DNA from: Opitutales bacterium
GTDB taxonomy: Bacteria > Verrucomicrobiota > Verrucomicrobiia > Opitutales > T3Sed10-336
Direction: 5' to 3'
Assembly: GCA_022565335.1 (NCBI GenBank)
Contig: JAIUMY010000012.1
Coordinates: forward strand, 1-49,145
DNA length: 49,145 nucleotides
Made by a program: the position numbers and the translations under genes. Positions 5,837-30,584 of the stretch are shown here, piece after piece. Numbering within the stretch: the first letter of the stretch is position 1; each line of letters opens with the position of its first letter. Under the pieces are notes generated by a model, which saw only the letters and a list, made by a program, of their open reading frames with translations, was not told where the DNA came from and searched no databases.

Positions 5837-6640
5837 ATGAACATTACCTCACTTATCTTACGTGTTCTGGCCATTGCCGGAGCCATTGCCGCCGTAGTCC
5901 TCTTTATGCAAATCAAAGATTTCCATGAAGAGATGGAAGGCGAAATTGCCACGACCCGTGGCCAAATTCAGGAGTCCGAAGAAAATCTTCGGGTAATGAC
6001 CGATGACCGGGACGCCGAGCGTGCTCGCGCTGATGGTTTGGAAAGTGATTTGGAAGACGCTCGGGCGGAAATCGATGTGCTGGAGAGAAATCTTGCCCAG
6101 ACGGAGCGCGATCTACAGGAAGCCCGCAGCGATTTGCGCGATGCCCGCAGAAATATTTCGCAACTTGAAGACGAAAGGGATGAATTGAATCAGCGTAATG
6201 CCGAACTCGATCGCCGCATCGCCCAGATGGAAGACGAGCACGAGCGGACACTGGTCAGTTTGCGTCAGCAAGTAGCTTCTTTAGAGGAAGAACTTGATGA
6301 AGCGGAAGCTGCGCAGGTTGACGATCGGGATGTTGCAGGCATGGATTGGGATGATTTTAATGGCGTCACCGATGAACGTGACGAACCCGAGCCTGTGGTT
6401 ACCGGTCCCATCAGTGGATTGGTTTCCGCCGTTGGGTCGGACTCCGCGTTTGTGGTCCTGAATCAAGGGTCCGAAGACGGGGTGCGGGAAAATATCAACT
6501 ATGCGGTTTTTCGTGGGGACCGGGCGATTGCCCGGGTTCGGGTCAGCGAAGCCAGGGAAAATCTGGCGATTGCCCAGGTACTGCCCGGCACCCTTGATCG
6601 TTCGATTCGTCAGGGGGATACCTTCAGGTCGATCGACTAA
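5837..6640 (+). CDS. Membrane-anchored coiled-coil envelope protein, uncharacterised
   Basis: N-terminal TM, long heptad/acidic coiled coil (~40-155), C-terminal beta-rich domain (GPISGLVSAVGSDSAFVVLNQGSEDGVRENINYAVFRGDRAIARVRV...). Confidence 0.8.
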   Translation: MNITSLILRVLAIAGAIAAVVLFMQIKDFHEEMEGEIATTRGQIQESEENLRVMTDDRDAERARADGLESDLEDARAEIDVLERNLAQTERDLQEARSDLRDARRNISQLEDERDELNQRNAELDRRIAQMEDEHERTLVSLRQQVASLEEELDEAEAAQVDDRDVAGMDWDDFNGVTDERDEPEPVVTGPISGLVSAVGSDSAFVVLNQGSEDGVRENINYAVFRGDRAIARVRVSEARENLAIAQVLPGTLDRSIRQGDTFRSID

Positions 6641-17154: not shown

Positions 17155-17823
17155 ATGAAAAAACTTCCCTTATTCTGCCTTTCTGCCTTATTTGTTTTCG
17201 CTACTGTTGCCCACAGTCAGCAAGATAGTAGTGCACGCGTTCCTATCGAAGTCGACCGGGTCAATTGGAACGCGGTTAGAGACGGAAATCGTGGCAGTTG
17301 GCAGGAAGTTGAAATCCAGTTGTCTGTTAATGGCTACACCGAAAGCCAACAAGAGGCTTTGGAGTTGCACACCCCGCTTTTCCTTAATGATATTGAGGTT
17401 ATTCTTCACACTGCCCATGAATTGCGAAGCCCTCAAGGGAGCGCCATAAGGGACGCGCAAGACAACCCCGTTTTTGTATTCTATTCTTCCGAGGTGGAGA
17501 TTGTTTCTTTGGAAAGAAACGCCCGCAACAATCAGGTTCTTTTTTACCTCCCTCCGGAAATCGTCAAGCGCGATGGCATCAGAGCGGGTCAGGAACCTTT
17601 TCGCTTTCTTATTGAGCTGAGGGCTGATGGTCGGGAAATTCCCTTCTCCCGGGAGAGCCAAAGAAGGATGTCCTCACAACTTATGGATGCGGAGGCGGTT
17701 TCCAACTTTATGAGCCAAGTGCGCAGTCAGGCCTCCGCTAATGAAGGCATTCTCATGCCGATCTATCAGACTCCCCACTGGCACTCGCGCCGGGCCGAAA
17801 ACTCGCCGCCTTACAAATGGTGA
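17155..17823 (+). CDS. Secreted pilus-locus protein, Amuc_1102-like by position
   Basis: Signal peptide MKKLPLFCLSALFVFATVAHSQ; beta-rich (VPIEVDRVNWNAVRDGNRGSWQEVEIQLSVNG); first gene of a five-gene pilus-like block. Confidence 0.6.
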   Translation: MKKLPLFCLSALFVFATVAHSQQDSSARVPIEVDRVNWNAVRDGNRGSWQEVEIQLSVNGYTESQQEALELHTPLFLNDIEVILHTAHELRSPQGSAIRDAQDNPVFVFYSSEVEIVSLERNARNNQVLFYLPPEIVKRDGIRAGQEPFRFLIELRADGREIPFSRESQRRMSSQLMDAEAVSNFMSQVRSQASANEGILMPIYQTPHWHSRRAENSPPYKW

Positions 17824-17875
17824 GAACAGGGCTGAAACTTTACCACTCCAACGACATTACTTATACCCCTTACCT

Positions 17876-19600
17876 ATGAGCTCCGGCAAATTACAGCAAG
17901 TTCTCAATTGCGGATCCCAACATTTATCCTTTGGTGCCTTTTCCGAATCGGATGGGGAACTCTCTTTGGAGCGATTTGATTACGAACCTCTGGCAGGTGA
18001 AATTACTTCCGACGAGGATTGGATTTCCGCTCTCATTGAAGGATTGCGGGAAATCACCACCCGACAGGAAATCAAGGGTAAGGTATCCTTGATTTTTCCC
18101 GGGCATTTGCTCCTCACGAAATTTATCAAGGTTCCGTCGATTGCTGAATCAAAACGCGACCAAATTATCCGTTTTGAGGCTCAGCAAAATATTCCTTATC
18201 CCCTGAATGAGGTGGTATGGGACTATGAAATTGTTTCCGACGATGGGGCCGAATTTGAGGTGGCGTTAGTGGCCATAAAGCTGGAAATCGTCGAGCAAGT
18301 TTGCGGCCTTTTGGCCAGCATGGATCTTCAGGTTGAACGCATCAACCCGTCGAGCATGGCGCAGCTAAACGCCTTTTCCTATCAGGAACCGGAAGTGGAG
18401 GACCCCCTCCTTATTGCCAACATCGGGGCCAAATCCTCCAACCTTCTTTTCCTTTCCGAAGATTCATTCTTCATTCGGAATATCTCCCTTGCCGGAAATC
18501 AGCTTACCCAGAGCATTGCCGAGGCTTCGGGAGATTCCTTTGCCGAAGCGGAAGAGCTTAAACAAAACACTTTTGCCGAGGGTCTGGACGATAATTCCCC
18601 GGAAACCGTTCTCAATGCGGCAAATTCTTTCATCCGACGCTTTTCCATGGAACTGACCCGTTCCATTGTGAATTTCCGCCGACAAAGCGGAGCGGAAAAA
18701 GTGGGAAGAGTCGTTTTGACTGGCGGCGGGAGCATGATTCCGGGCCTTGCGGAGCAAATGGAGGAGAAGCTCAAATCCTCCGTTGAAGTTCTCGACCCTT
18801 TCACCAACATCTCCCTGGGCGAGGACATCGACACGGATTTTCTGGAGCAGCGTCAGTATGCTCTGCCCGAATTAGTCGGGGTCGCGGTTCACTCTATCAG
18901 GGGATCCGCTAAAGTTGATTTCAATCTGGTTCCCCCGGCAATCCTCTCCAAAGTTCGTCTTAATCAACAAAAACCCTATTATATCGGGGCCGCAGCCCTC
19001 ATTGCTTTAGGGCTGTTTTTCCCGCTTTGGCAAATGAATCGGGCCACCGCTTCATATGAAAACGCCGCTTCTGAATTGCAAAGTGGTCAGGCCGTTGAAC
19101 TGTCCGTTACTGAGTTGAACGCCACCCATCGGCAGATTCAGAACAACTTGGAAACCATCTCCAACCTGCGCGATCAGGTGGCCCTCTTCGATGAGACTTT
19201 GGCCCGATCCAATCGTTGGATTGACCTTTTGGCGCAGCTTGAGACTACCTTCAACCAAGTTGAGGATGCCTGGCTGGACAGTTTGCGCTTGGAAATCGTA
19301 GATCCTGCGGCAGAGCAACAGTTTCAGCGAACGCCCAGGCGAAGAGGCCCGGTCGATGAGGAGGAAGTCGTGGAAGAAGAACCGACCTTTAATCTCGTGA
19401 TCACCGGCCGCATGCTGGATCGGGCTAACCCTCTGTCCACGGTAAGCAGCGAAACCAGGGTTCGCACCCTGGCGCTCCTGGATAATTTGGAGCAATCGAT
19501 GTACATCGAGGAAAAAACTGAGGATTCCTACGATACTTCCCGAAGCGGAATCTTAACCTTCTCCGTAAATTTACGGCTTAACAACGATCTACCCCTTTAG
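17876..19600 (+). CDS. PilM (FtsA/actin-fold) fused to a PilN-like TM/coiled-coil region, Amuc_1101-like
   Basis: PilM signatures (LTKFIKVPSIAESKRDQIIRFEAQQNIPYPLNEVVWDYEI; RVVLTGGGSMIPGLAEQM) followed by TM YYIGAAALIALGLFFPLWQM and PilN-like C-terminus. Start ATG 17876 (MSSGKLQQVL). Confidence 0.85.
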   Translation: MSSGKLQQVLNCGSQHLSFGAFSESDGELSLERFDYEPLAGEITSDEDWISALIEGLREITTRQEIKGKVSLIFPGHLLLTKFIKVPSIAESKRDQIIRFEAQQNIPYPLNEVVWDYEIVSDDGAEFEVALVAIKLEIVEQVCGLLASMDLQVERINPSSMAQLNAFSYQEPEVEDPLLIANIGAKSSNLLFLSEDSFFIRNISLAGNQLTQSIAEASGDSFAEAEELKQNTFAEGLDDNSPETVLNAANSFIRRFSMELTRSIVNFRRQSGAEKVGRVVLTGGGSMIPGLAEQMEEKLKSSVEVLDPFTNISLGEDIDTDFLEQRQYALPELVGVAVHSIRGSAKVDFNLVPPAILSKVRLNQQKPYYIGAAALIALGLFFPLWQMNRATASYENAASELQSGQAVELSVTELNATHRQIQNNLETISNLRDQVALFDETLARSNRWIDLLAQLETTFNQVEDAWLDSLRLEIVDPAAEQQFQRTPRRRGPVDEEEVVEEEPTFNLVITGRMLDRANPLSTVSSETRVRTLALLDNLEQSMYIEEKTEDSYDTSRSGILTFSVNLRLNNDLPL

Positions 19601-19612
19601 AGCTCCGAAATC

Positions 19613-20659
19613 ATGAATTGGTTTAAAAAGAATCCTCTATTTTGTTCAACGCTTTTGGCCTTGGTCATTCTTATTGTGGCCCAAATTGCCTTGGTTTTTG
19701 TGCAATACGGAAAACTCACCGATTCCCGACAAAATCTGGATGATCTGGTCGGGGAGAGGGACCGTCTGCTGGCCCGCGAGCCCGCGCCAGTGCCCGGAAA
19801 CGCGGAAATCGTGGAGGAAGAACAAGATGCCTATGAGGAATTGCTTGATTCCTTAGCCGATTTTTTTGCGGAAGGTGCGCAGCTGGAAGAATTTTTCGGA
19901 ACGCCTCCTTCCGATAGCTCCCAAGCTTTTTTCGACATCAGTACCTGGAGAACCCAAACCGTTCAAAAATTCGGGCGGTCCGGAATGATCCGGAACCCCG
20001 ATGAAATTAATTTAGGATTCCAACGTCATGCTTCTCAAGTTCGACGGGAAGAACCCATTGAAAAAATCCACCAACAGCGGATCATCGTGGATTATCTCCT
20101 CGATCGTTTGTATGAAGCCACCCCGGAAACCCTGGTTCGGGTAAGCCGTCAAGACCCGACCCGGCATGAACGCGAGGAGGAAGTCGAAACGACTCGCTTT
20201 CGCCGTCCGACGCCTTCTTTGGACAGAACCGAAGGAGACTTTTTTGAAATCCCTCCAGCGGTGACTCTGCGCCGACCGGGGATCATTGAAAGCGAAGGAT
20301 TCCGGTTGGTTTTTACCGGCCAAACCGATACTTTGCGGAGCTTCCTCGATGATTTGCAGAATAGTGAGTACCCCCTGTTTATTCGCAACGTTAGGGTTGA
20401 ACCCACCGAGACCCGGGAACGCTCACGTGTCCGAGGCGATGAAACCGAGCAGTTAGTCCGCATCCTGGAGCGTTTCGAAGGGGAGGACGGACCAACCGGA
20501 GGAGGGGAAATCGATGTTTCTGTTTTAGAAGAACTCGGAACCGAGGAACGGGAAAGACTCCGGCCCATTATCGGAACGGTGATCAATCGCTTTACCGTAA
20601 CCATCGAGTTTGTCACCCTAAGCGAATCTGAAAATTCGTCGGAAATCCCCAACCTTTGA
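19613..20659 (+). CDS. Bitopic pilus-locus protein, Amuc_1100-like
   Basis: N-terminal TM, coiled coil, NLGFQRHASQ... (cf. WLGFQVYSTQ in Amuc_1100 from memory), FTGQTDTLRSFLDDLQNSEYPLFIRNVRVE, terminal VTIEFVTL; same position next to PilM. Confidence 0.65.
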   Translation: MNWFKKNPLFCSTLLALVILIVAQIALVFVQYGKLTDSRQNLDDLVGERDRLLAREPAPVPGNAEIVEEEQDAYEELLDSLADFFAEGAQLEEFFGTPPSDSSQAFFDISTWRTQTVQKFGRSGMIRNPDEINLGFQRHASQVRREEPIEKIHQQRIIVDYLLDRLYEATPETLVRVSRQDPTRHEREEEVETTRFRRPTPSLDRTEGDFFEIPPAVTLRRPGIIESEGFRLVFTGQTDTLRSFLDDLQNSEYPLFIRNVRVEPTETRERSRVRGDETEQLVRILERFEGEDGPTGGGEIDVSVLEELGTEERERLRPIIGTVINRFTVTIEFVTLSESENSSEIPNL

Positions 20660-20668
20660 TTAGCCCCC

Positions 20669-21556
20669 ATGTTTAAAAACAATTTAGAGAAAATCATCCT
20701 GGGCATTGCTGTTCTTCTGATGGCAATCCTCCTGGCCGGTGGCCTTTTTGTCGAGGATCGCTCCGCTGAAGCTCTTCGCGATACTCCATCCACGGCGGTG
20801 GACCGTTATGAACCGGATGAACTTCCAACCATTGAGATGCCGGTGTTCAATTGGAGGGACTTTGGTCCGCAGCGTGGTGAGTCAGGATGGGTCTTTTCCC
20901 TTTTTACGCCCCCCAGCGTATGGTTTGATCCCGATGAAGAGCAATTTTTCCCCTTCCCGCCCAGTCTTCCACAAAGAGAGATTGAGATCGTCGAACCGGT
21001 AGGACCGGTGGAAGTGGAAATTCCTTTCGGCGTGATTCTCACCGGAATTGAAGAAATCCCTTTTCACATCGTTCTCACTGGTTTTATCGGGGAAGAAGGG
21101 GAATTCTTTGTAAATCTTCGCAACGAGGAAACAGGTCGTAGCTTTCTCTCCCGCCCCGGACGCGAACACCCTGATGATCACGAGGTCCGTATCGACAGTT
21201 TCCGCAGGGTACGTTTTGAAGACGATGGAATCTTCCGTTCTTATGGGGAAATGACCATCACGAATTTGCGCACTGGCGATCAATATGTTCTGCGCGATGG
21301 TGAGAGGGTCGGAACGGGGCAATACCGGGCAACCTTTGAAAGCGAGAGGGACGGTACCGAATTCTCCCTAAAGCCAGGTGAGGATGCGGTTGATAACGGC
21401 CTGATTTTTACCCTTGAACAAATTGATGTGGAAGCAGAAGAGGTTATCGTGGAGCGTCTGGAAGAGTCGACCCAAGACACTGACGTGAGAACACTCCAAC
21501 CTAATCAAAGCGAAGTAATCGTCCGCCTTGTCGAACAAGAAACCGAGGAAGAATAA
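20669..21556 (+). CDS. Bitopic acidic pilus-locus protein, Amuc_1099-like by position
   Basis: N-terminal TM IILGIAVLLMAILLAGGLFV; beta-rich repeats (IPFGVILTGIEEIPFHIVLTGFIG; GEMTITNLRTGDQYVLRDGE); lies between Amuc_1100-like and secretin genes. Confidence 0.55.
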   Translation: MFKNNLEKIILGIAVLLMAILLAGGLFVEDRSAEALRDTPSTAVDRYEPDELPTIEMPVFNWRDFGPQRGESGWVFSLFTPPSVWFDPDEEQFFPFPPSLPQREIEIVEPVGPVEVEIPFGVILTGIEEIPFHIVLTGFIGEEGEFFVNLRNEETGRSFLSRPGREHPDDHEVRIDSFRRVRFEDDGIFRSYGEMTITNLRTGDQYVLRDGERVGTGQYRATFESERDGTEFSLKPGEDAVDNGLIFTLEQIDVEAEEVIVERLEESTQDTDVRTLQPNQSEVIVRLVEQETEEE

Positions 21557-21640
21557 TTAAACTTTCTTAAAACATTGTCTTTCCCTTGACCGCTACCTAA
21601 AACTACTCTAGCAAAAATATCCCCAAGCATACAAATCCCT

Positions 21641-24292
21641 ATGAAAAAATATCGTTCCCAAAAATATAAAGCCTTTTTGGCGACTTTGATCGCCTTAAAG
21701 TTATTACTTACCCCATCGGTGCTCGTTGGCCAGGAATTCAACGGAAATGACGATGCCCTGCTCGAAGAAGCACTCGAGGCTCGCGCTGCCGGTGAATACG
21801 AGCAAGCCCTTGAAAAGCTGCTGGAACTCCAGGAACGGCGTCCTGATGACACTGCTGTCGCTTCGATGATTGAATCAATTGAAGAGCAAGCTTCCGGGGT
21901 CGAGATTGTGGGGGAGAACGATGTTGAGGTAGAGGTCGATCCGTCCCTTGATGCCGCCGAGGAAGAAGAGGCGAGGCAAGCCCGCCTGATTCAAGAAGCC
22001 CGCCAGTCCCAGTCCTTGGCGGAGCAAGATATCAACGCAGGCAATTATAGAGATGGCATTCGCCGTCTTGAGAGCGCCATTGACAGCTTGCCGTCCAATG
22101 TGCGGACCGATCCTCTTCGTATTGAGATGCAAGGCCAAATCGCTGATGCGGTATTGCAGCGCGCCCAAGCCCAACTCGCCGACGGCGATCATACCGGTGC
22201 CAGTCAGTCTTTAGCGGAGTTCCGCGAAATGCAGGAAAAAACCTCGCGCATGGAAAGAGAAGCGGAATCCATTCGGCAAGAACTCGAAGATCCCGAACGT
22301 ATTCCGTTGGAAGTGGTAAGTCCCGATTTTGTGGCCGAACAAGAACGGGTTCGCCAGTTCAACACCCGTGGCCGCGCCCAGTTCCGTTCCGGGGCTTTCG
22401 AAGATGCCGAACACAGCTTTAACTTGGCTCTGGCCATTGACCCCGACAATTCCGAAGCGAGTCATTACAAACGACGCATCTCCCAGAACCGGATGAGTCG
22501 GAAAGATGTCTCCCGGCAAACCACCCGTTCCGCGATGCTGGAGGAGGTTAGCGAACTATGGCGACGTCCAACGGTTTTTCTCGAAGTTGAAGATGCTGAA
22601 GATGTTGAAGAAGAAGAAGATCCTCTCCAAGTCAAATTGGATGAGATCATCATCCCGGTGGTAAACTTTCGCAGTCGTGATGGGCGCGATGTAACTTTCG
22701 AAGATGCCATTTCCCACTTGATCGAAGCTTCGGCTGAGTTTGACCGTACCGGAATTCAACCCAGAGGATTGAACATGGTCCTCATCGGGATGGGAGAGTT
22801 GCGTGACCAACCGGTACCTCTGGTTTTGCAAAATATGTCCGTCGGACGAATTTTGGATTATCTGGTTGAAGAAGTCGGGGCAGAATATGAGTTCATCGAC
22901 GGAGTGATCGAGATCCGACCCGCCCGCGACGAAGTCGGCCGGGATTTGATTACCGATATTTTCCCTATTTCTTCCTCCGCGGTTATACGAATGACCGGTG
23001 GTTCTGGAGGAGCAGCCGCACAACAAGGGCCCACCGATCCTTTTGCTACAACTCCTGAACCGGCGGATGATGCCGGGGGAGAGTCTGACGATATTCAACG
23101 CTTCTTACAGCGTGCTGGGGTGAACTTCGATGGCGTCGAAGGCAGTAACCTTGTTTACGACGGGTCCAGCCTGATTATCACCCAAACCCGCCGGAACTTG
23201 GACCGTATTCGAACCCTCCTGGCGCAATATTCTGAAATCCGCATGGTTGAAATTGAAAGCCGCTTCCTCGAAGTCCAGGAAGGCGCCTTGGAAGAATTGG
23301 GTGTTCAATGGGATATTCAAAGACGTCGAGGTGGTCAGCGTTTTGAAACCCAAAATCGAGACTTAAGCGCGCTGGGCCTTGGCAGTGGTTCTGAGGAGGA
23401 CGCCTTTGCTAGAGTAGTCAATGATGCTGGCGAGTTAGAATTTCCTATCTTTCCTCCCGCGTTACCTGGCGATGTTGATCTTGCTTCAGAGGCGGGTAAC
23501 CTTGTTGGAATCCTTGGTCGCTGGGGTGAGTATGATGTTAATGCGGAGATTCGGGCTTTGTCCCGTAAAACCGGAAGCGATCTGTTGAGTGCTCCGAAGG
23601 TGACCGTTATGTCGGCTCCTCCACGTCCGGCGGTCATTACCGTGGCCCAGGAGTTCATTTATCCACAGTCGTATTCTGATCCCCAGGTGGATGCCGGTAA
23701 TGGTGGCGCGGCTACCATTGCTTCGGGGACGCCTTTGGATTTCACCATGAGAAATGTTGGCGTGACTTTGGAGGTTTCTCCGACTGTTCAGGACGACAAT
23801 TTCCATATTGAAATGGACTTGGTTCCCGAGGTCGTCGAATTCGAAGGATTTGTCGAATACGGTGGCCCCTCAGTTGCTATAACAGGAAATACTGGTAGCG
23901 TCTTAGCTGGTACTTTTGCAAGTGGAACAACAGCCATCGTGCCTTCCGGCTTCTTCCAGCCCATTTTCAACACCCGCTCGGTGCGGACTCAGGTGACCGC
24001 TTGGGACGGTGCCACCGTTGTCTTGGGTGGATTGACCCGCGAGGAAACCCGTTACGTCAGCGACAAGGTCCCAGTCCTTGGCGATATTCCTCTGCTGGGC
24101 CGCCTTTTCCGGTCGGAAGGAGAGAGTACGGAAAAACGAAATCTTCTGATTTTTGTAACCCCGACGATCGTCACTCCCGGAGGCAGCCCACGTAATCAAG
24201 AGTTGCGTAACGTCGATACCGGATCAACTTTCCAAAATCACTTCCATATGACCCCAGGGGGCGCCGCCCGTCGGGTTCAGTCAGTGGATTGA
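21641..24292 (+). CDS. PilQ/GspD-type secretin with N-terminal TPR-like region, Amuc_1098-like
   Basis: Secretin C-domain VTAWDGATVVLGGLTREETRYVSDKVPVLGDIPLLGRLFRSEGESTEKRNLLIFVTPTIV; N-terminal TPR-like repeats (FRSGAFEDAEHSFNLALAIDPDNSEA). Confidence 0.92.
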   Translation: MKKYRSQKYKAFLATLIALKLLLTPSVLVGQEFNGNDDALLEEALEARAAGEYEQALEKLLELQERRPDDTAVASMIESIEEQASGVEIVGENDVEVEVDPSLDAAEEEEARQARLIQEARQSQSLAEQDINAGNYRDGIRRLESAIDSLPSNVRTDPLRIEMQGQIADAVLQRAQAQLADGDHTGASQSLAEFREMQEKTSRMEREAESIRQELEDPERIPLEVVSPDFVAEQERVRQFNTRGRAQFRSGAFEDAEHSFNLALAIDPDNSEASHYKRRISQNRMSRKDVSRQTTRSAMLEEVSELWRRPTVFLEVEDAEDVEEEEDPLQVKLDEIIIPVVNFRSRDGRDVTFEDAISHLIEASAEFDRTGIQPRGLNMVLIGMGELRDQPVPLVLQNMSVGRILDYLVEEVGAEYEFIDGVIEIRPARDEVGRDLITDIFPISSSAVIRMTGGSGGAAAQQGPTDPFATTPEPADDAGGESDDIQRFLQRAGVNFDGVEGSNLVYDGSSLIITQTRRNLDRIRTLLAQYSEIRMVEIESRFLEVQEGALEELGVQWDIQRRRGGQRFETQNRDLSALGLGSGSEEDAFARVVNDAGELEFPIFPPALPGDVDLASEAGNLVGILGRWGEYDVNAEIRALSRKTGSDLLSAPKVTVMSAPPRPAVITVAQEFIYPQSYSDPQVDAGNGGAATIASGTPLDFTMRNVGVTLEVSPTVQDDNFHIEMDLVPEVVEFEGFVEYGGPSVAITGNTGSVLAGTFASGTTAIVPSGFFQPIFNTRSVRTQVTAWDGATVVLGGLTREETRYVSDKVPVLGDIPLLGRLFRSEGESTEKRNLLIFVTPTIVTPGGSPRNQELRNVDTGSTFQNHFHMTPGGAARRVQSVD

Positions 24293-24364: not shown

Positions 24365-26302
24365 ATGTCCGCACCGGAACCTTACCGTTCAAAACAGGAG
24401 TTTTATCTGGGCTTTCTGCCTTGGTTTCTCCTGTGGATTACGGTGGGTCTTTTATGGGGGTGGGCCAACGCCCAATGGCAGGAAGGGTGGGTTGACCGCT
24501 CGCATGAATTTTTCCCGCCGGAGTGGCGGGCCGCCGGCGTAACGGCCGAATTGGCCCAAAAACATCCTCTTTACCGGGAGAACGACACCCAATACTGGGT
24601 TCGTTATGCCCTCGATACCCATCGGGGGGAATGGAAGCCCAATTGGACGGAAAGTGATGGCCTTGCCGAGGGCCGACCGGTGGCCTGGAATAGTGGCTTG
24701 CGTCACTTGCTGGCAACGACTGCTTCTTGGGGCGGAGAAGTCCAAGACGGCGAGCAAGCCATCAAGGAGGCGGGGCATTGGCTGAACCCGCTCCTTGGGT
24801 GGGTCTTTATCGGGGTGATTGGCTTTTTGCTGTGGTTTTACCGCGATAGTTCGGCGGCGGTGCTTTTTGTCGCTTTAGCCTTCTTTCTTCCGGCTTTGCA
24901 ATGGATGTTTGCCTTTGGCCGTTTTGACCACCATGGACTCTTCGCCCTGGGGCTCTGGCTTCAATTTTTGGGATTGATTCTGGTTTTTCTTCAAACCAAG
25001 GGGAATCAGGTCGGTTTTGTCACTTTAGCGGTTCTTGGAACAACTATTTGCTATTGGGTCAGTGCGACTCAGCAAACGCTCATCGGGTTTCTGATTACTC
25101 TCGGCTTTTTGATCTGGTTTTTGCTTTGCTGGAAGCGCAAGGAGTCACTTCCTGCACTGGAAAAGTTTTTCCTTTGGTGGGGAAGTGGTGGATTTGTCCT
25201 CATCCTTCTTTTCTGGGGATTCGAGGAGGGGTGGTCGTTGCCCGCCGGAGGGATGTCCAGTCTTCATCCAGGGCACGCTTTCGCCCATTTGGGCTCCGGT
25301 CTTTTTCTCGGTGGCGGTATAGCGCTATTACGAAAGCGGCAAAGTTTTGCCGAATTCACCCGTCCGCCGTATGATCTGCCTTTTGTCGGGGCCACTCTGG
25401 CCGGGCTGGCCCTGGGGCTTTTGCCCTTGGTCTTATTGGTGACCGGGGGAAGTGAGGCTCATATTTGGCTTAATGAATATGTCCGCCGGGCGCATGACTA
25501 TATCACGGAATTTCGCTCACCCTTGCGCCGTGGCAACTGGGGTAGCAGCGAGCTGTGGACCACTTTGATTACCGCAGGGCTGACCGCCATTCTATGGTTC
25601 AAGGAACCGCGATTGCGGGCTTTGTTGCTGGTTCTTTTGGGGATGGTTGTTGTTGCCCTTTGGCAGGAGCGTTGGTTGGGGGAGCTGGCAGTTCTATCCT
25701 GCCTTTTACTGTCGGTCGTAAGATTCCGTTTTCATTTGTGGGCCTTTGGCCTGTGGGTGGTCTTTCTGGGCTTGTTGTGGGCGGCCCATTGGAAGCACTT
25801 TGCGGATGATCCCGATGAACAAACCAGAGTCAGTTTGATGATTCAGGTGTTGGGCCGGGATATTGCCTTGAATATATCCGCCCATGCGGAGGGACAAGAC
25901 TCGGTGGTGGTCATGCCCTTTGATTTTACCCCGCAAACCCTCACCCATCCGGAGGTGCATTCCATTGGCTCTTTTTACTGGGAGAATGCCGAAGGGATTG
26001 AGCTCACCGCCGGGATTTTCGGGGAAATTGACGATGATCGCATCGTTACTTTGTTGCGGGAGCATGAGGTTGATTTTCTCGTGGTTCAGCCCCGGGGACT
26101 AGGGGATCTTTTTGCTGAGATCTGCGTGTGGATTTCCGAGGGGACCAAAGAGGAGGAACGCATCCAATCCAGCTTGGCGTGGAGGTTATCCTACGGGATG
26201 GGAGTTCCGGCATGGCTCGAACCTCTGCCTTTTTCCGGAACATTTCCCCCTCAACAAAGCTCTGCTTTATTGTATCGGGTAAGAGACCTTCCGGGGGAGT
26301 AA
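24365..26302 (+). CDS. Polytopic membrane protein, possibly STT3/PglB-like glycosyl- or oligosaccharyltransferase
   Basis: Many TM segments; early loop acidic motif ENDTQYWVRYALDTHRGEW; FGRFDHHGLFALGLWL resembles the DHH motif region of STT3/AglB-type proteins. No WWDYG motif seen. Confidence 0.45.
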   Translation: MSAPEPYRSKQEFYLGFLPWFLLWITVGLLWGWANAQWQEGWVDRSHEFFPPEWRAAGVTAELAQKHPLYRENDTQYWVRYALDTHRGEWKPNWTESDGLAEGRPVAWNSGLRHLLATTASWGGEVQDGEQAIKEAGHWLNPLLGWVFIGVIGFLLWFYRDSSAAVLFVALAFFLPALQWMFAFGRFDHHGLFALGLWLQFLGLILVFLQTKGNQVGFVTLAVLGTTICYWVSATQQTLIGFLITLGFLIWFLLCWKRKESLPALEKFFLWWGSGGFVLILLFWGFEEGWSLPAGGMSSLHPGHAFAHLGSGLFLGGGIALLRKRQSFAEFTRPPYDLPFVGATLAGLALGLLPLVLLVTGGSEAHIWLNEYVRRAHDYITEFRSPLRRGNWGSSELWTTLITAGLTAILWFKEPRLRALLLVLLGMVVVALWQERWLGELAVLSCLLLSVVRFRFHLWAFGLWVVFLGLLWAAHWKHFADDPDEQTRVSLMIQVLGRDIALNISAHAEGQDSVVVMPFDFTPQTLTHPEVHSIGSFYWENAEGIELTAGIFGEIDDDRIVTLLREHEVDFLVVQPRGLGDLFAEICVWISEGTKEEERIQSSLAWRLSYGMGVPAWLEPLPFSGTFPPQQSSALLYRVRDLPGE

Positions 26303-26561: not shown

Positions 26562-29500
26562 ATGAAACTCCTGAAGAGCAAAATCATTTTTCTCTGTTTG
26601 CTTTTGGGGTTTAGTATGGCCGTGAGAGGCTATGCGGCTGAGGGGGAGGCTCTCCGGATCAACGAAGTGATGGCTTCCAATGGCCAGACTCTGGCCGATG
26701 AGGACGGTGACTACCGCGATTGGATTGAGCTGTACAACCAGAGCGACCAGAGTATTTCTTTGGAGAATTGGGGTCTTTCCAATTCGAAAAATGACCTGCA
26801 CCGATTTCGTTTTCCGGAGGGAACCACCATTGGGCCCGGGGAACTTCTCCTGGTGTGGGCTTCCGGCAAAGACCGGTTCCCACGAAGCATGGACCTTCCG
26901 AGGGGAGAACGGTCTATGCTGACTCTTGCCGCGGGGGAGGCCTATTGGTATTTCCCGCAGGGAACCGGACCGGGGCGAGGGGAGGAAGCAAAGCTTTCCT
27001 TGGAAATAAAAGGATTCGGGAAGGATGATTTATCGTCTTCCTTTCTCACGTTTACGGGACCAGAACGCTTGATCCCGGAGGAGTCTCTGTCCCTTTCCGG
27101 GGACTTTACTCTTTCCTATCGTTTTCGCGGTTTTCCTGACGGAGTATGGAGTTTCTTCGGGCCTGCGGAGGAAACAGCGCACCGTTTTTCCCACTGGGGA
27201 GGGCAAAATCTCATCTTTTGGGAGCCGCTGACGGTGTTTCATTGGGATGAGCCTCTTCTTGACGACCAATGGTACACCGTAACCCTGATTCGCCGGGACG
27301 ATCGGCTGAGCGTCTGGCTTGATGACGACAAGGTGGGGGAACGTGAATTTGAGACGGTTTTGGAAATTTCCCAAATTGGCCTGGATTTCGAAGAAACGGC
27401 TGACCATAAGTCCATTGCCGGAGATTTCCAGGATCTCTTTTTTCTTCCCATCGCCCTTTCACCGGAGGAGGCGGAGCAGTGGGGGCGTGGAAACTTGGAG
27501 GAATGGGGCGATTGGCACACCTCTTTTCGTCTCTCTCCCAGTGACCCCTCGCTGTGGCTGAGTGACCCCGGGGGCCGGGTGGTTGATAGGGTCCCGGCCC
27601 AACGGATCCCCCGGGATGTTTCCTTGGGGCGAATTGAGGGCGAAGGAAGGGGGTGGTTTTATTTCCCCGATCCTGCCCCCCGCCAGGCGAATCCTTCCTC
27701 CGGCTACCAAGAGCTGTTGGAACCCGTGCGCTTTTCTCAAAGAGGGGGGTACTTTCATGAACCGGTTACCCTGGAACTCCGTCATCCGGATCCGGAAGTG
27801 ACCATTTATTACAGTTTGGACGGCTCCGAGCCGCATCCCGATTTTCTCGAAAAGGGGACTTTTCAGTATAAAAATCAATACGTCCTTCAACCGGGGTTCC
27901 CGGATGGCCCGATGCTTGAGGGGACGTTTCAAAGCCATCGCTACGAAGCACCCCTTCAGCTGGAGGATCGTTCCCGCGAGGCTGACTGGCTAACCCGGAA
28001 AGCCTCCACCTTTCATTTCCGGCCATACTATTTTCCCGACAAGCCCGTTCGCAAGGGAACCACGGTGCGGGCAATGGCTTACAAGGAAGGGGCTCTGAGC
28101 CATAGTGAGACCCAGACGTACTTTATCTGGCCGGACGGACCCGCTTTTTCCCTGCCGGTCATCAATCTCACTACGGCGCCGGAAAACTTGTTTGGGTATG
28201 AGGAAGGGATTTACACCGCGGGGGTCGACTTTGATCAGTGGCGGGAGGAAAATCCGAATCTCATCCCAGGATGGCATTCCGCCGGCAATTTCCATCGGCG
28301 CGGTCCGGCAAACGAGGTTCCGGCAACTCTGGAGATCTACGATTTTCAAACCGGGGATTTTCTGCATCGGAATATCGGGATGCGGATTCATGGTGGCTGG
28401 AGCAGGGGATTCCCGTCGAAGAATCTTCGACTGTATGCCCGCGGAGGATACGATCATCGGGGGGCGATGGATTTCCCGTTCTTTCCCGGAAAGGTGTATC
28501 GGGCGGAGGGGGAGGATTCCTCTTTGTTCGACCGCATCATTTTGCGGCGCAAGGGCAATTTTGACCGCTTCCGTGGACATATTATCGCGCATCGGGTGAT
28601 GCAACCGGTGTTCAACGGGATGGTCCGGGTGGCCAATGCACAGCTGTTTATCAATGGCGAATACTGGGGGCTGACCACCTTTCATGACCGCTTTGACCGA
28701 AGATTTGTCAGCCGAAATTTTGGACTGGACCCCGATAATGTGGTTATCACCTACCGCGGGGGAATGTTTTATTCGGAAAATGATGGATTGGCGCATGAAG
28801 TTGATCACGGATGGCCGGAGGATATAAAGCTCTATGAGGAGTTGGTTGAATTCATCGAGACGGAGGATCTCTCCGATCCGGAGAAATATTCCCAATTGAA
28901 AGAGAAGCTCTGTTTGCAAAGTTACTTCGATCATTTGGTGTCCATCATCTTCTTTCGCAACTCCCACTATGAGCACAGTTTCTGGCGGGCCCGGGAACCC
29001 GAGAATGAGGGGCATGGCGACGGGCGTTGGCGGCTTTATGTGCAGGATTTCGATCATATCATTTTCGACGAAGAGCATTATGGTTTACCCAAAATGGTTG
29101 AGTTGATTACCTTCTTCTCGCACCTGCTGGAAAGTCCCCATTTCGTTGAGGAGTTTTTGAACCGCTACGCTGATCATTTAAATTCGACTCTTCAACCCCG
29201 GCGAATTCAGCGAATCGCGAAAGAGGAATGGAATGAAATTGCGCCTTATCTGCCGGAGGATATTGCCCGTTGGGGGAATGAAGAACCGCTCAAAACGAAG
29301 GAGGATTTGGAGGTGCTGAAAGCGTTTGCCCGTCAGGAACCAGAAAATGCCTATGCCCAGGCCATGAAGGTTTTTGATATTTCCGGTTTGGCCGACGTGG
29401 TGGTCGCGGTGAACGATCCGGCCAAAGGCCTGGTTGGGGTAAACTCGCTGACGATCGGCTATGACACCTTGGGTTTGCCCAATCCGAAAAAACCTTACCC

Positions 29501-30584
29501 TTGGCAAGGAACCTATTTTCAGGAGATCCCCATGACTTTCGCAGCGAACCCCAAGGAAGGGTTCTCTTTTTCCCACTGGGACGTATCCTGTTCGGAAAAA
29601 GGTTCCTATACCTCCCGCGAAACCCCCTTGACGGTTGAGCCTTTTTCCCGGTTACGGGTTAAGGCGAGTTTTCGCCCGGACACCGGCGGGGCCGATACAT
29701 TGCGGGAGAAAACCTTTCCGGCAACGTGGAATTTGTTTACCGGCCGGGATAAAAGGATCGCGCTTTCGCATCTTTTGGCGTCTACCCCAGACTCTGAAAA
29801 TTACGCCGTGGTTTCGGTCCAGAGCTCTTCCGCTGAAGTTGTCCAGGTTGGGGTCACCGGAGAGCAAATTGTGCTGAAGCCGCGAGCTCCCGGAAAAGCT
29901 ACGGTCCGGGCTGAGGGGACTACCTCCAATGACCGAATTGCTTTAACTCTTGGAGTACTTGTCCATGGAGCTCCCCATGCGTTGGCGGAGGAACCTTATC
30001 GGCTCACCGCTTGGCCAGCTGACAAACCAAGAGGAGTCTTTCCCGACTCCGCGGTTTTTTTGCAAAGCGACCAGAATGATCCCGATCGTGCCGCGCCCTT
30101 ACTCGATCTCTATGATCCCGGAGATGATGCCCGTCGGGACCGGGACCGAAGCTATCCTTACGCGGCGGAGCGCCGAACCCGCATCAATGGCCTTGGAGAA
30201 GAGGGGATGGCCTTTATCAACACCGGACGGGGCCGGGATCTGGGGGGCTTGGCGGTTACCTTGGATACGCGGGGAGTGGAGAAGGCCACGGTCTCCTTTG
30301 AGGTCGAGACCCTGCTCCCCAACGAGCGGGCTTACGGGCTGCGGCTGCAGTATCGGATTGGGAATGAAGGGGTGTGGACGGACGTGAAACACCAAGGGCT
30401 TCCCGTTCTTTACCGGAGTCAATTGGTGCCCGGGCATCGTAAAGAATTTGACCGAATTCCTTTACCTGAACAGATTCTCAACCAACCTGAAATTCAACTT
30501 TTGTGGCGCTATCATCACCTTACCGGCCAATCCGGCCCGAGGGCGCAGATTCGACTGGACAATATAACCATACAAGCAGAGTGA
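26562..30584 (+). CDS. Giant secreted protein: lamin-tail domain, LamG-like domain, chitobiase-like beta domain, CotH kinase-like domain, C-terminal repeat-like domains
   Basis: Signal peptide; LTD LRINEVMASNGQTLADEDGDYRDWIELYNQSDQSISLENWGLSNS; EVTIYYSLDGSEPHPD; CotH segment TTFHDRFDRRFVSRNFGLDPDNVVITYRGG...WRLYVQDFDHIIFDEEH. Confidence 0.85.
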   Translation: MKLLKSKIIFLCLLLGFSMAVRGYAAEGEALRINEVMASNGQTLADEDGDYRDWIELYNQSDQSISLENWGLSNSKNDLHRFRFPEGTTIGPGELLLVWASGKDRFPRSMDLPRGERSMLTLAAGEAYWYFPQGTGPGRGEEAKLSLEIKGFGKDDLSSSFLTFTGPERLIPEESLSLSGDFTLSYRFRGFPDGVWSFFGPAEETAHRFSHWGGQNLIFWEPLTVFHWDEPLLDDQWYTVTLIRRDDRLSVWLDDDKVGEREFETVLEISQIGLDFEETADHKSIAGDFQDLFFLPIALSPEEAEQWGRGNLEEWGDWHTSFRLSPSDPSLWLSDPGGRVVDRVPAQRIPRDVSLGRIEGEGRGWFYFPDPAPRQANPSSGYQELLEPVRFSQRGGYFHEPVTLELRHPDPEVTIYYSLDGSEPHPDFLEKGTFQYKNQYVLQPGFPDGPMLEGTFQSHRYEAPLQLEDRSREADWLTRKASTFHFRPYYFPDKPVRKGTTVRAMAYKEGALSHSETQTYFIWPDGPAFSLPVINLTTAPENLFGYEEGIYTAGVDFDQWREENPNLIPGWHSAGNFHRRGPANEVPATLEIYDFQTGDFLHRNIGMRIHGGWSRGFPSKNLRLYARGGYDHRGAMDFPFFPGKVYRAEGEDSSLFDRIILRRKGNFDRFRGHIIAHRVMQPVFNGMVRVANAQLFINGEYWGLTTFHDRFDRRFVSRNFGLDPDNVVITYRGGMFYSENDGLAHEVDHGWPEDIKLYEELVEFIETEDLSDPEKYSQLKEKLCLQSYFDHLVSIIFFRNSHYEHSFWRAREPENEGHGDGRWRLYVQDFDHIIFDEEHYGLPKMVELITFFSHLLESPHFVEEFLNRYADHLNSTLQPRRIQRIAKEEWNEIAPYLPEDIARWGNEEPLKTKEDLEVLKAFARQEPENAYAQAMKVFDISGLADVVVAVNDPAKGLVGVNSLTIGYDTLGLPNPKKPYPWQGTYFQEIPMTFAANPKEGFSFSHWDVSCSEKGSYTSRETPLTVEPFSRLRVKASFRPDTGGADTLREKTFPATWNLFTGRDKRIALSHLLASTPDSENYAVVSVQSSSAEVVQVGVTGEQIVLKPRAPGKATVRAEGTTSNDRIALTLGVLVHGAPHALAEEPYRLTAWPADKPRGVFPDSAVFLQSDQNDPDRAAPLLDLYDPGDDARRDRDRSYPYAAERRTRINGLGEEGMAFINTGRGRDLGGLAVTLDTRGVEKATVSFEVETLLPNERAYGLRLQYRIGNEGVWTDVKHQGLPVLYRSQLVPGHRKEFDRIPLPEQILNQPEIQLLWRYHHLTGQSGPRAQIRLDNITIQAE

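Follow-up and report, generated by a model that had tools for sequence, protein, structure and literature searches.

Known relatives of the locus

Many studies have dealt with Amuc_1100 of Akkermansia muciniphila as a "pili-like" probiotic protein, yet the machine to which it belongs is poorly understood. It is encoded in the Amuc_1102–1098 cluster (MUL2 plus PilQ), with which two other systems are comparable: the type IVa pilus set, with the canonical order pilM-N-O-P-Q, and the GspL/GspM/GspC/GspD set of type II secretion (T2SS). According to PMC13174399, citing Davey 2023, MUL2 of Akkermansia mediates the transport and processing of mucin. Its published range comprises Verrucomicrobiales and, more weakly, Chthoniobacterales, with absence from Methylacidiphilales (PMC13174399), and the same paper, which calls Amuc_1099 uncharacterized, makes no mention of Opitutales or other classes in its main text.

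Organization of the five-gene module

The window analyzed here, the whole 49,145-nucleotide stretch of DNA from an Opitutales genome, holds five plus-strand genes (P1 to P5) at 17155–24292, separated by intergenic gaps of 9–84 bp. The order and topology that a first-pass annotation had read from these co-directional genes were all found, and they are alike in every position, in order, and in direction to Amuc_1102–1098. P1 (17155–17823; 222 aa) possesses a Sec signal peptide, while no class III (prepilin) leader was found in it, and is the homolog at the Amuc_1102 (MUL2A) position. P2 (17876–19600; 574 aa), the homolog of Amuc_1101 (MUL2B), consists of a PilM-like actin-fold domain, an internal transmembrane (TM) segment at approximately residues 369–387, and a periplasmic part of about 190 aa, which is the layout of a PilM-PilN fusion or a GspL-like protein. 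The longest P2 frame starts at 17741, but the ATG at 17876 is favored by relatives and was adopted because the ortholog in L009, a closely related Opitutales metagenome-assembled genome, is 574 aa long. P3 (19613–20659; 348 aa) is a coiled-coil protein with an N-terminal TM segment, homologous to Amuc_1100 and in the PilO/GspM-like position. P4 (20669–21556; 295 aa), the Amuc_1099 homolog, combines an N-terminal TM segment with a beta-rich periplasmic part and occupies the PilP/GspC position, the role of which it may share. P5 (21641–24292; 883 aa) is a PilQ-like homolog of Amuc_1098 with a signal peptide, a TPR region, and a secretin domain. This topology is kept in most relatives. A terminator-like hairpin on the plus strand just 3' of P5 (24328–24343) could mark the end of the operon; it was recognized by its consensus match alone, the hairpin count being no higher than in shuffled sequences.

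Directly 3' of P5, the window encodes a 645-aa multi-TM protein (24365–26302) weakly similar to the oligosaccharyl transferase STT3 (E 0.014). This protein is also found 3' of P5 in the near relative L009 and in none of the other loci read. It is followed by a 1340-aa exported protein with lamin-tail and CotH kinase domains (26562–30584).

Family assignment of P2, P3, and P5

P2 matched NF045709 (Amuc_1101_fam) of NCBIfam with 340 bits (E 2.5e-101), TIGR01175 (pilM) with 134.9 bits, which passes the cut-off of 133, and PF11104 of Pfam at 4.7e-37. P3 matched NF038287 (Amuc_1100_fam) with 72 bits (E 5e-20), and P5 matched NF042912 (Amuc_1098_fam) with 422 bits (E 5.6e-126) as well as the Pfam secretin domain PF00263 at 7.5e-35, together with TPR motifs. 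The PilM and secretin of a type IVa system are thus identified by TIGR01175, PF11104, and PF00263. Because all three NCBIfam matches to the Akkermansia families fall below the NCBI equivalog cut-offs (340 of 650, 72 of 180, and 422 of 750 bits), the locus is a divergent variant and not an NCBI equivalog, in agreement with the first-pass description of it as a divergent counterpart of Amuc_1102–1098. A P3 profile built from Opitutales members only found the solved Amuc_1100 structures 6lad/6kny (E 1.5e-8). The Amuc_1100_fam match was present in all 14 members of the P3 family and a GspM match in six of them (best 4.6e-6), and phmmer searches of the PDB with single P1 and P3 sequences returned nothing relevant. 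Another segment of the window (5837–6640) was considered as a second P3 and rejected, its match at 1e-13 being a coiled-coil artefact.

Conservation across Verrucomicrobiota

P1–P5 occur in order in 12 distinct Opitutales loci (the window, L009, L071–L076, L078, L080, L082, and L088; L079 duplicates L009), and P2–P5 in four further ones (L010, L077, L081, and L158). Of the 22 loci belonging to other orders and classes (L089–L110), all picked by PilM alone, 22 have P2–P5 in order and 21 also have P1. Since these loci, chosen on a single gene, carry P3, P4, and P5 in order, the arrangement is far beyond chance. PilM of the Amuc_1101 type was found in 374 of 388 Verrucomicrobiota genomes at E <= 1e-3, a cut-off that admits other PilM/FtsA-like proteins as well. 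The cluster therefore recurs in the same order throughout most of Verrucomicrobiota, beyond its published range. In the PilM tree, the Opitutales branch is long and separate. The gene set that the first-pass annotation proposed as a candidate verrucomicrobial envelope machine is recognizable in these loci, and it is phylum-wide and not peculiar to this genome; the two findings on which that proposal had been made to depend, matches for P2, P3, and P5 and a conserved order in related genomes, were both obtained.

Lone secretins of the Amuc_1098 type (~670–780 aa), with no P1–P4 adjoining, are encoded in Opitutales genomes of 0.8–1.0 Mb (L083–L087). Counting every NF042912 match as a module was consequently rejected, because these tiny genomes hold the secretin alone. 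Additional copies were also observed elsewhere. Akkermansia possesses a second Amuc_1098-type secretin (841 aa, TPR and secretin; L160:4900–7425, corresponding to ~1921900–1924425 of contig C1 in genome G024), located away from MUL2 without P1–P4 alongside, and in L096, L097, and L109 a second one lies directly 3' of P5. One family member, G428, carries a second PilM (C288:737–2182) that is far closer to the Amuc_1101 model (7e-149) and possibly represents a contaminating contig or a transfer.

Motor genes are encoded elsewhere

Searching the matches of this genome (G000), we found no T2SSE (PilB/PilT) or T2SSF (PilC) match on C12, the contig of the window, and no N_methyl pilin on C12 among the matches listed, as the first-pass annotation had observed for the window. 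The genome-wide search it had suggested shows that the type IVa parts PilB, PilT, PilC, and pilins are present: the totals are nine PilB/PilT-type ATPase, ten T2SSF, four secretin, and 28 N_methyl matches, and contig C39 carries a pilB2-pilT-pilB1-pilC operon without any secretin or PilM match on that contig. The separation of the alignment/secretin module from its motor, likewise anticipated, extends to other genomes. The C39-type operon recurs, with its two PilB copies, in other Opitutales, in other classes, and in Akkermansia (L154, without pilT), and in every genome checked it is unlinked to the module, at distances of ~560 kb in the closed genome of Akkermansia G024 and >1 Mb in that of G442.

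Three small Opitutales genomes (G149, G176, and G305) possess only one secretin, which is of the Amuc_1098 type, only one PilC, in which two T2SSF domains lie on one protein, and a tandem PilB pair; for G149 and G305, the loci of the motor operon were inspected directly. Because these genomes offer one secretin and one PilC, the module was matched to the C39-type motor by elimination. Furthermore, the closed Akkermansia genome G024 has only two secretins, both of the Amuc_1098 type, and one PilB pair among the top ATPase matches listed. Among 80 Opitutales genomes that could be scored from the top matches listed, six intermediate genomes being left out, the tandem-PilB motor was present in 48/50 genomes with the module and in 4/30 without it (Fisher 1.2e-14, a statistic that ignores phylogeny). 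The exceptions are G060 and G397, with a module and no motor pair among the matches listed, and G108, G429, G437, and G440, with a motor pair and no module. In G108, a reduced Opitutales genome of 1.7 Mb, secretin remnants broken by stops were observed (C6:72220–72626).

In five Opitutales loci (L028, L116, L117, L119, and L120), the motor operon is immediately flanked by a Rho-like gene, which lies upstream of pilB-pilT-pilB-pilC in L028 (L028:13486–15222). In other lineages, rho is located just downstream of P5 (L089, L092–L095, L098, L103, L106, L110, and L111 of Akkermansia); the window, unlike Akkermansia, has no rho immediately 3' of its secretin. Both halves of the machine thus share a rho neighbor, in different lineages, and this is only suggestive because rho is a housekeeping gene.

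Possible architecture of the machine

The analysis established homology, gene order, topology, conservation over the phylum, the separate location of the motor, and the co-occurrence of module and motor, and on this basis a possible architecture was proposed. The locus probably encodes a PilMN-O-P-Q alignment complex with its secretin, the fixed, envelope-spanning half of a MUL2-type machine resembling the type IVa pilus and presumably driven by the C39 motor. It is read as a type IVa alignment complex and gate because a PilM (with PilN), a bitopic coiled-coil protein, a bitopic beta-rich protein, and a secretin reproduce the pilM-N-O-P-Q order of roles, with the secretin last, and because six of the 14 P3 family members resemble GspM. 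Compared with the canonical set, PilM and PilN are apparently fused here, the secretin bears N-terminal TPRs, and the exported P1 is an extra gene upstream. P5 would form the outer-membrane secretin gate bearing the TPR region, and P2, as a fused PilM-PilN, could tie the motor in the cytoplasm to the periplasm. Single-TM clamps from the inner-membrane ring to the secretin may be provided by P3 (PilO/GspM-like) and P4 (in the PilP/GspC position), and P1 may be a small exported beta-rich component of the complex. The unlinked pilB2-pilT-pilB1-pilC operon would power extension and retraction by acting on pilins whose genes lie at other sites. Two observations stand against this proposal: no PilP/GspC match is detectable in P4 with profiles against the PDB and Pfam, and a second PilMNOPQ-like set on contig C10 could use the same motor. 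By analogy with MUL2, the Opitutales machine may mediate glycan attachment and the uptake of complex glycans. The first-pass wording of an uncertain function is partly out of date, since a mucin role of MUL2 has been reported for Akkermansia (PMC13174399 citing Davey 2023).

It is unlikely, in our estimation, that the module instead forms an independent channel for secretion or uptake, either T2SS-like or a motorless glycan port, with no pilus motor as a partner. Such a channel would fit the GspL-like layout of P2, the weak similarity of P3 to GspM, the lone secretins of the tiny genomes, and the fact that motor or pilin genes never adjoin the module in the genomes checked. However, module and tandem-PilB motor are present together and absent together, the genomes with one secretin and one PilC leave the pair matched to each other, and P2 exceeds the TIGR01175 cut-off, PilM models scoring best. 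In addition, GspE/GspF are not alongside the module, unlike in type II secretion, and the T2SS-like sets of this genome are separate, on C35 and C5.

Still less probable is a pilus alignment complex that uses another motor, assembled from a lone PilC on C6 and a lone PilB on C79, leaving the C39 motor to the C10 set. G000 does hold several unpaired motor genes in addition to the C10 set (L031:4638–10648), which comprises proteins of 351, 216, 195, 145, and 815 aa, has no adjoining motor, and includes a secretin scoring best as PilQ and a third gene that is weakly GspM-like. Nevertheless, the C39-type operon is kept in genomes whose only secretin is of the Amuc_1098 type, so there the motor needs no C10-type secretin.

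Distant homology of P1 and P4

The proteins of the window encoded by P1 and P4 have no direct NCBIfam or Pfam match, and in the P1 family NF042424 was matched by one of 12 members (0.0034). In hhalign comparisons, the Opitutales P1 family matched the Amuc_1102 family (96.4%, E 1.3e-9) and the Opitutales P4 family matched the Amuc_1099 family (98.0%, E 1.8e-13) over most of the protein length, and swapped-pair controls gave only 0.2% and 0.8%. The Opitutales-only P1 HMM picked the P1-position gene in five Verrucomicrobiales loci (best 1e-9), and the corresponding P4 HMM picked the positional gene in eight, that of Akkermansia among them (4e-5); the Akkermansia reference locus was recognized by the match of its P1 to PDB 7dsz at 4e-138. 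It is very improbable that P1 and P4 are unrelated genes in the Amuc_1102 and Amuc_1099 positions, the common set comprising only PilM, the Amuc_1100-like protein, and the secretin, as the missing direct matches and the failure of the Opitutales P1 profile to find 7dsz might suggest, because the profile–profile matches come with clean controls, the HMMs pick exactly the positional genes, and the topology is the same as in the counterparts. Models of P4 and P1, predicted from one and two sequences, reached pLDDT 41 and 44, respectively, too low for fold reading, and the Foldseek matches of the P1 model were discarded as meaningless. Judged from profile comparisons, all five products are homologous to Amuc_1102, 1101, 1100, 1099, and 1098, and the locus is a distant member of the MUL2 superfamily.

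TSP3 repeats at the Amuc_1099 position

The motif DxDxDG..N.EE, a TSP3 repeat of the calcium-binding type, occurs in at least one copy at the Amuc_1099 position of 21/22 other-lineage loci: two or more copies in ten loci of other classes, one copy in 11 loci of Verrucomicrobiia, and none in L099. None of 17 Opitutales loci carries one (L079 counted with L009, and L158 outside the count), the window included, whose P4 is also shorter than the Akkermansia protein (295 versus 337 aa). Pfam TSP3_bac matched eight of 11 tested members of the Verrucomicrobiales type (best E 3e-4). The three repeat states need three changes on the PilM tree, compared with a mean of 17 after shuffling, which with the other classes as outgroup suggests a stepwise reduction of the repeats. 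These repeats and their absence in Opitutales are apparently undescribed. A tentative reading of these motifs, in our estimation somewhat less likely than not, is that the Amuc_1099-position protein could be a calcium-responsive clamp in nearly all sampled Verrucomicrobiota, the repeats lying between the membrane anchor and the beta-rich part (two in other classes, one in most of Verrucomicrobiia), and that the Opitutales version may have become calcium-independent after repeat loss.

Significance

The locus is a divergent form, specific to its clade, of a known system under recent study, and what is new is its wider range, its likely motor, and the calcium-repeat difference. From the conserved layout, Amuc_1100 would be an inner-membrane clamp, similar to PilO/GspM, in a pilus-type machine found throughout the phylum, and the operon most likely powering that machine, located elsewhere in the genomes checked, can now be named. 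The repeat loss in Opitutales amounts to a natural experiment by which a putative calcium switch could be examined. Should the glycan role extend beyond Akkermansia, this machine may be the basis on which Verrucomicrobiota in general take up polysaccharides.
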